Positions 22,843-28,234 of a stretch of DNA of 64,000 bases are shown piece after piece. The position numbers and the translations under genes were made by a program. The notes under the pieces are model-generated. The model was given only the letters and a program-made list of their open reading frames with translations, ran no database searches and had not been told where the DNA came from. Position 1 is the stretch's first letter. Every line of letters starts with the position of its first letter. Source of the stretch: Halorubrum depositum (GTDB lineage: Archaea > Halobacteriota > Halobacteria > Halobacteriales > Haloferacaceae); NCBI RefSeq assembly GCF_007671725.1, contig NZ_VCNM01000002.1:62001-126000 (forward strand). The letters are read 5' to 3'.

Positions 22843-23625
22843 TCAGCGTCTGAACGAGCTGACGTGCTGGTGGTTCGGGTCCGCGCGCATGTCGACGTGC
22901 CCGCAGTTGACGCAGCGCCATACGTACGCTGCCAGTCGCGCGGCCGAATCGCCGCCGTCTATCGGTTTGTTCCAGTCCTGTCCGCACCGCGAGCAGTCGT
23001 CGGGCCGGTACTTGCTCTCGATCGTCGCGTCAGCGTCGACGGCGTCGACGGCGTCGACGCCGGCGATCGTGATCCCCCGCGCGACGGCGCGGACGTCCTC
23101 GTCGCTCATCCGCGGCCGGAGCCCGTTCAAGTAGTTCTGGATGCGATCGGCCCGGTTTAGGAGCCGCCCGTACCGCTCGTCGTCCGACAGGTCGCCGTCG
23201 GCCCGCCACTCGTACGTCGAGATCATGACCGTGGTCCTGTAGTACAGGCCGAGCAGTACGTGATAGTTCGCGCGGTTGAACAGCGCCTCGACGGACTCGG
23301 TGAGCTCCGCCTCGAACACCGGTCGTTCGATCTCGCGGTCGTACCCCGGTTCCGGCGTCGCATTCGACCGGTCTCGGATCCCGACCACGCGGCAGTGAGG
23401 CGCCTGTGTTCCGACTCGCTCGAGTATCGGATCCGCCCCCTCGTCGCCGAACGAGTGCTCCAACACGACGACCGCGGTATCGGCGTCGAACGTCTCGACG
23501 AACTGCGACCGCGTCAGCGCCTGTCGGACCTCGCGGTCGTCGAGCCAGAGACCGTAGAGGTCCGCTCTCGTCCTGTTCGATTCGCAGACGACGATCGCCG
23601 GTGCCGGGAGCCTCACGGGGATCAC
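22843..23625 (-). CDS. Degenerate receiver + HalX domain + zinc ribbon protein
   Basis: 260 residues from a GTG. Residues 9-110 align with a response-regulator receiver, but the acidic pocket is Glu15-Ser16, the phosphoacceptor Asp is Glu56 (VVVLEHSF) and the conserved Lys is Arg101 (IERPV). Residues 105-150 resemble HalX, the haloarchaeal output helix pair. The C-terminus adds CSRC and CVNC, a zinc ribbon absent from ordinary HalX regulators. It starts 48 bases after the PAS sensor gene, so the two look like one operon. A phosphorylation-independent output protein is the inference. Confidence 0.75.
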   Translation of the reverse strand: MIPVRLPAPAIVVCESNRTRADLYGLWLDDREVRQALTRSQFVETFDADTAVVVLEHSFGDEGADPILERVGTQAPHCRVVGIRDRSNATPEPGYDREIERPVFEAELTESVEALFNRANYHVLLGLYYRTTVMISTYEWRADGDLSDDERYGRLLNRADRIQNYLNGLRPRMSDEDVRAVARGITIAGVDAVDAVDADATIESKYRPDDCSRCGQDWNKPIDGGDSAARLAAYVWRCVNCGHVDMRADPNHQHVSSFRR

Positions 23626-23673
23626 CGACCGGCCGGCGATCGAGCGGCCGAGCGACCTCGGCTGTCGTTCATC

Positions 23674-25785
23674 TCACTCGTCCCCCGCGGTGGACCCCGG
23701 CGCCGACCCCTGCATCGACTCCGAGAGGTGTCGCGGTTCGACCGAGAACGAGTGGACGGTCGCGAGGTCGTCGACGAGCGAGATCGCGGTCTCGATCGAC
23801 CGCGTCGCCCGTCGGAGCTCCTCGTCCGTTCCGTCGTCGACCGCCGCGTCTAGGTGTCTCTTCGCCTCCCGCAACGGGACTCCGAGATCCTCCGAGAGCA
23901 CTTCGCCGAACTCCGACAGGTGCCGTTCGACCGACTGCTCGTGCTCCTTCGACTCCGTCACGTCCCGGATGAACGTGACCGCGTGCGTCACGTCGCCGTC
24001 CGTCTCGACGACGGGAGCGACGGCGACCCGGCCTCAGAAGGGGGTCCCGTCCGCGCGGTGGAGCACGGCGGTCACCGACCGGTGTTCGCCCGCCTCGAGC
24101 GCCGTCTCAAGCTCCCGTATGCGATCGCCGTCCGTCCCGCCGCCCACGAGCACCGAGAGGCTCTCGCCGGCGATCGAGTCGTGATCGTGTCCCGTCGTCG
24201 CGTTGAACGCCTCGTTCACGTACGTTATCGGGCCCTTCGATCCGGTCACCTCGTGTATCGCGATCCCGACCGGCGCGGTCTCGATGGCGCGGTTTTTCAA
24301 CCGGAGCTCCCGCTCGCGGCGTTTCCGGACCGTGATGTCCGTCGCGATGCCGACGATACGCGACAGATCACCGTCCTCGTAGACGCCCGACGACTGGTCG
24401 TGGACCCACCGGACCTCGCCGTCCGGTCGGGTCACCCGATACGTCTCCTCGTACGCGTCCGGGTCCTCGCACTGTTCGGCCAACGCCGTCTCGACCCGCT
24501 CGCGGTCGTCGGGATGGATCGCCTGCACGAACGACGTGGCGTCCTCGACGAGCGTCTCGGGCGAGCGCCCCCAGACGGTCTCGTAGGAATCGGTGACGAA
24601 GTCAATCGATTCCTTGCTCGGAGAGGTCATCCAGATGACCTCGCCGGCGTTCGCTTGGATCTGATCGAGCATGCCGGCTCGTTCCTCCCGCTCCGTCACG
24701 TCGAGGGTCATGCCGATCACGCGACTGACGGCGCCGGTCTCGTCCAGTGACGGCTGGAGCCACGTTTCGAGCGTCGCGTCGGGCAGTTCGACGAGATCGT
24801 GGCTGGACTCGCCCGCGAACGCGGCGTCGACCGCGCGGCGGATCCGCGGTTGGTCGCCGAAGACCTCCGCCACGTCGTCTCCGGGTGAGACCCGATGGCG
24901 GAGCCGCCGCGACAGGGTCTCGCCACGGACCGTCGAGACCGTCCCGTCGGGCTCGACCTCGAAAAGCGTCAGGGGCGCGCTGTCGACGACAGTCTCGACG
25001 GCCTGTCGGAGCCGCAACAGCTGGTCCTCGCGTTCCCGGCGATCGGTCACGTCCCGACCGATGCCGACGATGCCCCGCGGCGTCCCGTCGGCGTCGGTCA
25101 CGATGGCGCCGGTAAACTCTATCGGAGTCGCCGTGCCGTCCTTCGCGATCAGCTCCGCCTCGACGGCGGCCGTACCGGTCTCCAACACGGTCTCGATGGC
25201 GTCTCCGATCCGGTCTCTGTCGGTGCCGGCGAAGAGCTCCAGCGCGTTCTTCCGCTCCAACTCGCGGTCGCCGTATCCCGTGATCTCTCGGAGGCGGTCG
25301 TTCCACCGCATGAGCGCGCCGTCCGTGTCGAGCGTGTAGAACGCGTCGTCGATCGTGTCGAGGAGACGTTCGGTCGGTTCGGCGGCTAGCGGCGGCCGCG
25401 TCGGCGTGGTCGAGACTGTGTCCATCCGTCGAGCGAGCAGCGTCGGTTCGTCGACGCCGTCCCGGCGGACCAGCACGTCGGTCGCCCCGGCCGCGAGCGC
25501 GTCGTCGACAGCGGTGTCGTCGCCGGTGATCGCGAGCGACGGGACGTTGGGAAACTCCTCGCAGATCGCGACGAGGGGATCGACGCCCGACGCCGGGGTC
25601 AACTCGCAGACGATCAGCCGTACGTCGGCCGGGACCGCCGAGGCGTCTTCGATGGCCTCGGGATCGACAGTGACGACGCGGTCCGGTCCGTCTACGATCG
25701 TCGATTTCGCGGCCGCTTCCCGGACCCGGTCCACGGCGGGGCCGACGTGAACGACCGTCCGAACCGATTCCGTTCGGGGCTCCAT
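23674..25785 (-). pseudogene. Multi-PAS sensor with in-frame TGA and dead DHp region
   Basis: The reading frame is open from 25785 to 23674 except for one TGA at 24034-24036. It follows ADGTPF, where PAS domains normally have Trp (TGG), so a single base change is the simplest cause. Layout: receiver-like residues 1-120 with Glu at the phosphosite (VCELTP), four PAS domains (about 140-255, 265-375, 380-490, 495-610, the stop falling in the last), then a DHp-like helix SEFGEVLSEDLGVPL where the phosphoacceptor His is Glu (codon 23890-23892). It ends without an ATPase domain. It may be a nonsense-split gene, a readthrough site or a sequencing error. Confidence 0.7.
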
Positions 25786-25942: not shown

Positions 25943-27652
25943 TCACTCGTTCTGGACGAACTCGCCCGAGCAGTCGTACTCGATCAGCTCGACCCTGCCC
26001 CCGGCCTCGACGGTTCCGTTGTAGGGGTCGGTCCGCTCGTACAGCTGGTAGACGGTCACGTTCTCGACGCCCGTCTCGTGGGTCCGGTTCCACTCCTCAC
26101 AGAGGTGGTTCGCGAGGTACGAGCGGTGGTTCTCGTTGTCGGCGGAGTAGACGTTCGTGAGGTACTTCCGCCAGCGCGAGGTCGGATAGGTGGCCTCCGC
26201 GCGCGCCGGGCGGTCGAAATCGACCGTCGCGTCTCTGAGCACGTCCCGTTCGGTTCCGTTCTCGAGGGTCCCGGGCGCGACGAACCACCGCGTCGTGTGG
26301 GTGGGGTCGGGCGCGAACATCCGCCACGACTGGTCCATCTCGACGGCGTCCAAGACGTCCTCGCCGGGGTCGGGGACCTCGGCGTAGTCGACCGCCTGCG
26401 CGCCCGAGAGGAGGATCAACACGAGGAAGACGTACGGGAGGACCGTCGAGAAGAGGACGCGTCCGCGGGCGAGGCCCGCGGTGAGGTCCGCGCTGCGAAG
26501 GCCGTCGAGGGGCTCCGGCGCGGTCGGGCGGGCGAACGATCCGCGTCGAGGGAGCGACGGGCGTCGGGGAAGCGACGGAACGTCTCTCGCCCGGGATTCG
26601 AGGCGGGAGCGCCAGCGCACGAGCGGTTTCGACCACCCCAGACGGTCGACCGCGCGCTCGGCGGCGTCCCACGCGGGCGTCTGGAAGAACGGAATGAAGC
26701 CGACGACGACGACGATCGGAAACAGGTCGATCCGCATCGTGACCGCCATCCCGAGGTGCATCCCGACGAACAGCGAGGCGATCGCAGCGCGCGGAATCCC
26801 GGTGAGCAGGAGCAGCAGCGGCGACGCGAACAGCAGCCCGATCCACAGAAACGTGAGCGCGCGCAGCAGGCCGGGGAAATCGGCGACGTGGTTGCCGAGC
26901 AGATAGGTGAAGTGGTCGGCCTGCATGACGTACGCGACGGCCTCGCCGCTCATCCAGAGGTCGCCCTCCCGCTTGTGGACGGCGTTCGTCACGTACATCA
27001 GTAGCATCTGCAGCAGGACCGCCATCGTGGCGACGCTCGCCACGGCGGGACCGCTCGGACCCGGCGTCTCGGACCCGGCGTCGCTCTCCGCCCGAGGCCC
27101 GACGCCGCTTTCCGCCGCGGAATCGGCGTCCGATCCCGTACCGACCCGCGCGTCCGCCCGCCGGGCGGCGTCGACCGACCAGCGCGCGCCGAGCGGGAGG
27201 AAGACGCTCCAGAAGAGCAGCATGCGCAGCAGGCTGTCGCCCGCGTTCAACACCATCGGGTTCCGGGCGTGCAGCGAGAGCAGCAGCAGCCACGAGACGA
27301 CCGCCATGAGTCGCGTTCGGTACCCGACGAGCAGCGCGAGGGCGAACGCGCCGGCGACGGCGAACAGCAACGCCGCGGCCCACGGCTCGCCCGAGAGCGT
27401 GTGCGGCAACGGGGTCGTCGAGTAGTCCGCGAAGAGCGCTCGTCGGGGGAGCACGCCGTAGTCCGTGTAGAAGGCGGTCAGCCACCGCGAGCGCCGGGCG
27501 AGGTCGGCGAGCAACAGCGCCCCGAGCCCGATCCGGAAGGCGGCGAGCGCGCGCAGGTCGACCGCGACGCGCGCGGCGAGCGCCGCGGAGAGCCGACTGA
27601 GGGCGTTCGAGAGTCGCGACCGAGCGGTGTCGGTGGAGGGCGTTCGTTCCAT
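25943..27652 (-). CDS. HTTM-domain membrane protein
   Basis: 569 residues. The N-terminal ~350 residues carry many helices and the HTTM pattern found in vitamin K-dependent gamma-carboxylase relatives (LAAFRIGLGALLLADL near residue 38, HARNPMVLNAGDSLLRML near 126). The rest is a soluble extracytoplasmic part with EMDQSWRMFAPDPTHTTRW near residue 460. A variable acidic loop lies near residue 160. It is divergent from a DCC-family gene, a pairing seen elsewhere. No quinone-dependent carboxylation has been shown in archaea. Confidence 0.8.
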   Translation of the reverse strand: MERTPSTDTARSRLSNALSRLSAALAARVAVDLRALAAFRIGLGALLLADLARRSRWLTAFYTDYGVLPRRALFADYSTTPLPHTLSGEPWAAALLFAVAGAFALALLVGYRTRLMAVVSWLLLLSLHARNPMVLNAGDSLLRMLLFWSVFLPLGARWSVDAARRADARVGTGSDADSAAESGVGPRAESDAGSETPGPSGPAVASVATMAVLLQMLLMYVTNAVHKREGDLWMSGEAVAYVMQADHFTYLLGNHVADFPGLLRALTFLWIGLLFASPLLLLLTGIPRAAIASLFVGMHLGMAVTMRIDLFPIVVVVGFIPFFQTPAWDAAERAVDRLGWSKPLVRWRSRLESRARDVPSLPRRPSLPRRGSFARPTAPEPLDGLRSADLTAGLARGRVLFSTVLPYVFLVLILLSGAQAVDYAEVPDPGEDVLDAVEMDQSWRMFAPDPTHTTRWFVAPGTLENGTERDVLRDATVDFDRPARAEATYPTSRWRKYLTNVYSADNENHRSYLANHLCEEWNRTHETGVENVTVYQLYERTDPYNGTVEAGGRVELIEYDCSGEFVQNE

Positions 27653-27817
27653 AATTTCGTAGCGGAGAGTTCAGGAGGAATCTCAGTTCAGTCGGCATAA
27701 GCTTGTTGTAAATTGAAACGTTCATTTCACCCTCGTCGGGATACCCACGGACGGGAGCGCCGTCCGGGCTCCCGTCGATCGGAAGCGTGAACTGGGGCGG
27801 CCGCGTACGTTGTCGCC

Positions 27818-28234
27818 ATGGCCGCAGAGCCCCCGGACGCCGACGCGATCGTCCTCTTCGACGGCGTCTGTAACCTCTGTAGCGGATTCGTGCAGTTCAT
27901 CCTCCCCCGCGACGACGAGGCGAAGTACCGCTTCGCCTCCCTCCAGTCCGACGTCGGGCAGGCGCTGCTTGCCGAACACGACCTCCCGAGCGACGAACTC
28001 GAGTCGGTCGTCCTGATCGAAGACGGAGAGAGCTACGTGAAGTCGTCGGCGATCATCCAGATCGCGACGGGGTTGGGCGGTGCGTATCGGCTCCTCTCGC
28101 CGTTCCGGTACGTTCCCCGATCGCTCCGCGACCGGATCTACGACTTCGTCGCCGACCACCGATACCGGTGGTTCGGTAAGAAGGACCGGTGCATGATGCC
28201 GTCCGGAGATGTCGAGTCGCGGTTCTTGGAGTGA
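27818..28234 (+). CDS. DCC-family thiol oxidoreductase-like protein (DUF393)
   Basis: 138 residues. FDGVCNLCSGFVQF with Cys18 and Cys21 is the signature of the DCC family, a thioredoxin-like fold; YRWFGKKDRCMMP near the C-terminus is typical too. It is divergent from the HTTM gene. Confidence 0.88.
   Translation: MAAEPPDADAIVLFDGVCNLCSGFVQFILPRDDEAKYRFASLQSDVGQALLAEHDLPSDELESVVLIEDGESYVKSSAIIQIATGLGGAYRLLSPFRYVPRSLRDRIYDFVADHRYRWFGKKDRCMMPSGDVESRFLE

Follow-up and report, generated by a model that had tools for sequence, protein, structure and literature searches.

A pair of adjacent genes on the minus strand of a 64,000 nucleotide stretch of Halorubrum depositum DNA (assembly GCF_007671725.1, contig NZ_VCNM01000002.1, positions 62,001 to 126,000; hereafter the window) encodes a PAS-containing sensor (23674..25785) and, about 50 bases downstream, a REC-HalOD2 regulator, also referred to as the HalX protein (22843..23625). 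With moderate confidence, the pair is taken to be a pseudo-two-component module, in which a sensor that has neither an ATPase domain nor the phosphorylatable His would signal by contact to a REC-HalOD2 protein with a degraded receiver site, and in which the sensor appears to have been truncated recently in the genome of the window.

The two genes form a stable unit. In all 21 comparable pairs, which come from Halorubrum and four other haloarchaeal genera, they are adjacent, codirectional and in the same order; the linkage across orthologues that a preliminary description of this DNA had proposed to check is therefore confirmed. The regulator occurs in 11 of 52 Halorubrum genomes, each time with a sensor or a sensor remnant next to it. 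A scan of GTDB contigs returned only HalX relatives of the Halorubrum type, and the wider pairs came from two profile searches. The HalOD2 profile, run on 292 genomes of the class and followed by inspection of the neighbourhoods, added six pairs, one in another genus of the same family (G315) and five in another family (G163, G116, G099, G212 and G115), while the DHp-like profile, run on 391 genomes, added three more (G362, G325 and G398), and the pairs span two haloarchaeal families. In the second search family members score more than 112 bits and canonical kinases, which follow next, less than 57, the exception being a remnant in G030 with 63 bits. Besides this remnant, all 18 near-complete matches are sensors whose immediate downstream neighbour is a codirectional HalOD2 gene. 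Distances between sensors and between partner proteins correlate with r = 0.95 over the pairs, a value inflated by the shared ancestry of the sequences. Since the ratio of non-synonymous to synonymous substitution (dN/dS) is about 0.3–0.45 in both genes, both are under purifying selection. The G362 copy, which belongs to the other family, falls in the Halorubrum group of the sensor tree and is nearest to Halorubrum by identity in both proteins, which suggests that the two genes moved between families as a unit. A third conserved partner was sought and discarded: no further gene is common to all pairs, and an SDR gene is found 3′ of it in no more than a part of the Halorubrum genomes.

The sensor, delimited by Pfam, AlphaFold and orthologues that read through as a single open reading frame (ORF), consists of a REC-like domain (about residues 9–125), four PAS domains, a DHp-like hairpin (residues 610–677) and a C-terminal tail. 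Pfam gives strong PAS matches and neither a HisKA nor a HATPase match. In the AlphaFold model (mean pLDDT 77.8), residues 610–651 and 653–677 form a helical hairpin, and the N-terminal part has a receiver-like fold in which residue 61 ends strand β3. The motif SEFGEVLSEDLGVPL, described earlier as DHp-like with Glu at the place of the phospho-His, is present, and its identity is upheld by both comparison and model. A profile of the tail matches the DHp domain of Thermotoga HK853 with E = 0.005, placing ‘aedLgvPL’ under ‘SHELRTPL’, and haloarchaeal DHp domains with E below 1e-12; from these matches and the two-helix model, the tail is homologous to the DHp dimerisation hairpin. The statement that no ATPase domain follows is also upheld, as the sensor proteins end within about 30 residues of the hairpin. 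In a tree built with the best-scoring domain of each canonical protein, the Glu-type DHp family is a single clade with support of 100/99. At the phospho-His position (Glu632 in the window, 23890..23892, minus strand) the residue is Glu in 18 of the 21 pairs, Asp in Atlit-26R, Ala in G325 and G398, and His in none; all 25 of the nearest ordinary haloarchaeal DHp domains have His there, and nearly all continue into ATPase motifs. Glu632 is at the 76th percentile for identity within the sensor. A phosphatase role through the Thr or Asn at H+4 of a DHp domain was rejected, the residue at this position not being conserved (V in 10, T in 7, and A, E, D and I in one each). Just after the hairpin, a V-H-S-F-S-V motif (23740–23757, minus strand) is invariant in all 21 tails, more so than the Glu.

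The N-terminal domain of the sensor is a pseudo-receiver throughout the family. Its phosphosite, Glu61 in the sequence VCELTP (25603..25605, minus strand), was recognised earlier and is Glu in 18 of 20 sensors, Arg in G006, Gly in G017 and Asp in none, with a rank at the 83rd percentile for identity. The first residue of the acidic pocket is Gly in all 20. Since the DHp site is never His, and the Glu and Gly of the receiver recur in this way, the changes in the sensor are, as judged from the alignments, old and maintained, while Glu56 of the HalX protein is recent and local. As its sequence shows, the sensor is unable to autophosphorylate or to carry a phospho-His.

The regulator, recognised by Pfam, AlphaFold and Foldseek, has 260 residues and a GTG start, and comprises a receiver-like domain (residues 1–104), long HalX-like helices (105–185) and a zinc ribbon (about 207–255; 22861..23007, minus strand), whose four Cys residues 211, 214, 238 and 241, arranged as two CxxC pairs, are invariant in 18 aligned pair members. 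The match to Pfam HalOD2 (PF18547; 9e-15, 54.8 bits) is above the cut-off of 27, while that to HalX (PF08663; 0.0058, 17.5 bits) is below the curated cut-off of 23.2, although the helical pattern is similar. In the passages of the 2018 catalogue that treat it, HalOD2 is a haloarchaeal regulator output domain with a HalX-like N-terminal part and a C-terminal zinc finger with two CxxC motifs (PMC5847659); because the Pfam domain joins these two elements, the protein first described as HalX plus a zinc ribbon is a REC-HalOD2 regulator. The Pfam sequence search finds no receiver domain in it. In the AlphaFold model (mean pLDDT 73.4), residue 56 ends β3 of a receiver fold, and the top Foldseek matches of this model are solved receiver domains, with TMt of about 0.75.

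The receiver of the window's regulator departs from the residue set of a functional phospho-receiver, an acidic pair, Asp, Thr/Ser and Lys, having instead Glu15-Ser16, Glu56, Arg84 and Arg101. Ser16, Glu56 and Arg101 were reported in the preliminary description, which overlooked Arg84; all three are in the sequence, but Ser16 and Glu56 are not conserved. Glu15 is invariant, while the second acidic position is variable. The phosphosite (23458..23460, minus strand) is Asp in 10 of the 21 pairs, Asn in four, Glu in three, Gly in two, and Ser and Ala in one each; it is among the more variable positions of the protein (25th percentile for identity), and the three sequences with Glu come from the species of the window and two near relatives. 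Glu56 is therefore ruled out as a conserved phospho-mimic, and the claim that all phosphotransfer residues of the pair have changed to Glu does not extend to the family. The opposition drawn there between conserved Glu and a mixture of His and Asp divides in the same way, there being no His anywhere but Asp in many HalX orthologues. The Thr/Ser position (Arg84; 23374..23376, minus strand) is Arg in 19 pairs and Thr in two, and the Lys position (Arg101; 23323..23325, minus strand) is Arg in 14 and Lys in seven. Because 18 HalOD2 genes with no adjacent sensor also have no Asp in the phosphosite column, with one exception in what is a rough alignment, HalOD2 receivers look degenerate as a group. 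Among HalOD2 genes without a Glu-type sensor, those at L099, L100 and L102 have genes matching ordinary PAS histidine kinases in their vicinity, which is a different pairing. The HalOD2 gene of G061 (L095, 6268–7053) is apparently frameshifted, with its helical part and zinc ribbon in different frames. Elsewhere in the genome, outside the window, a short open frame (71 residues; G000:C2:381152-381274) gives a second HalOD2-like zinc-ribbon match.

The proposal that the pair is two-component-like and works without phosphotransfer is supported by the sensor, whose DHp site is never His and whose receiver is never Asp, and by the linkage of the genes, with their constant adjacency and correlated distances. 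Signalling in the pair probably runs through contact of the DHp-like hairpin with the receiver face. In the mechanism proposed, PAS input would alter the DHp-like dimer, which would bind or release the HalX receiver face directly, and the HalOD2 zinc ribbon would then act on nucleic acid or on another partner, all without phosphate transfer. The acid that has replaced His and the bases at the former Thr and Lys sites of the receiver (Arg84 and Arg or Lys101) could be part of that contact, standing in for the phosphoryl group, and the residues at these sites suggest a charge contact. More tentatively, at somewhat less than an even chance, the pair may represent a dedicated switch made solely of catalytically dead two-component parts, a pseudo-kinase that would steer its own pseudo-receiver by contact and that has been maintained across haloarchaeal families.

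In the window, codon 584 of the sensor gene is an in-frame TGA (24034..24036, minus strand), where the nine other Halorubrum-type sequences in the alignment read TGG (Trp). The stop cuts the DHp-like part off the sensor, and it was overlooked when the PAS protein was described as one intact product; the DHp-like segment lies in a separate GTG-started ORF of 105 residues (23674..23991, minus strand), which holds the whole hairpin and the VHSFSV tail. This ORF could yield a stand-alone protein of hairpin and tail. Since codon changes downstream of the stop are no more relaxed than those upstream, the nonsense codon is either recent or a sequencing error; with one genome per species, it may be a true mutation or an error of sequencing or assembly. 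Altogether, five of the 13 Halorubrum-type carriers, the window's included, have a broken sensor gene, the other four by TAG codons in G026 and in the metagenome-assembled genome LUM70, by a frameshift beside an ambiguous base in G017 (H. persicum), and by deletion of most of the gene in G030. In G030 the HalX gene also has a TAG, while in every other carrier of a broken sensor the HalX protein is intact. The HalX protein of the window's genome may work without its partner, or the module may be breaking down there.

Several observations weigh against a contact-signalling module. The Glu of the hairpin is not absolute, and since two sensors carry Ala, a specific acidic or charge contact is not essential. 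Ten partners keep Asp, and in that of G398 two acids, Asp and Lys are all retained, so that some of them may be phosphorylated by another kinase. Breakage of the sensor with HalX usually left intact means that HalX may not always depend on the sensor, and adjacency indicates linked function but says nothing about mechanism.

These observations bear on three other explanations. The sensor might regulate ordinary histidine kinases, its hairpin forming mixed dimers with canonical haloarchaeal kinases or competing for their regulators, and HalX might be phosphorylated by one such kinase. The hairpin is indeed related to many canonical haloarchaeal DHp domains, ten of the 21 partners retain Asp, and bacterial pseudokinases of the DivL type operate inside phosphorelays (PMC4211667). 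However, the Asp is missing from 11 of the 21 partners, Thr is replaced by Arg in nearly all, and the sensor is always paired with HalOD2 and not with canonical kinases, so this explanation is considered unlikely. A somewhat smaller chance is given to the HalX/HalOD2 protein being a constitutively active nucleic-acid-binding protein governed by its level of expression, with the sensor as merely a separate input. Many HalOD2 genes occur without a Glu-type sensor, and HalX survives in genomes where the sensor is broken; against this, a full Glu-type sensor always adjoins a HalOD2 gene, and both have apparently moved between families together. Least probable is that the pair as a whole is a two-component system in decay, with substitutions that are neutral wear. 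The broken sensors and the restriction of the regulator to a minority of the genus genomes agree with decay, but intact pairs in two families and several genera have identical substitutions, dN/dS is far below 1, and no relaxation is detectable past the window's stop. Local decay is thus largely refuted for the family, while for the window's sensor gene itself it is likely, if the TGA is real.

Next to the pair in the window are a gene with an HTTM domain (vitamin-K-carboxylase-like) and a small gene, encoded on the opposite strand, that has a CNLC motif of the DCC-like kind (25943–28234). These neighbours are kept beside the pair in G007 and/or G023, and in most other carriers the HTTM homologue lies elsewhere.

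Both architectures of the contact-signalling module proposed here are already known; what is new is a pair of catalytically dead partners that is conserved. It provides a natural two-gene test case for contact signalling, with phosphotransfer residues lost in sensor and receiver alike, and some of the ‘two-component’ repertoire of haloarchaea ought not to carry a kinase or phospho-receiver annotation. DivL, a pseudo-histidine kinase of Caulobacter, is unlike the present sensor in having Tyr at the His site, in keeping an ATPase-like domain and in working on a phosphorylatable regulator. The two are alike in that a histidine kinase has been repurposed without ordinary phosphotransfer (PMC4211667). 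HalOD2 is treated in a single paper of the literature searched. In the relevant parts of their 2018 catalogue, Galperin et al. list both REC-HalOD2 regulators and ATPase-less histidine kinase-like proteins, the latter with a conserved His (PMC5847659). The regulators listed there have the receiver-like domain, HalX-like helices and predicted two-CxxC zinc finger of the present protein (PF18547), but the receiver here is without several catalytic residues and has a dedicated sensor partner, which those parts of the account do not mention. The nonenzymatic kinase-like class, which includes REC-(PAS)n-HisKA proteins without HATPase, shares with the sensor the absence of HATPase and, in some members, the N-terminal REC; it retains His, however, where the sensor family has Glu, Asp or Ala, and the HisKA profile is blind to the sensor. 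Pseudo-receivers in general resemble those described here, since Glu is the commonest replacement of Asp and Arg is common in place of Lys (Bourret et al. 2025, PMC12632262; Maule et al. 2015, PMC4395418); Glu is found in 26% of aspartate-less receivers (PMC4395418). The way in which pseudo-receivers are switched is presented as an open problem, and Bourret et al. knew of no functional study of an archaeal atypical regulator (PMC12632262). Of the 20 bacterial atypical regulators that they describe, only two are not orphans, whereas in the haloarchaeal pair the partner is encoded next door.
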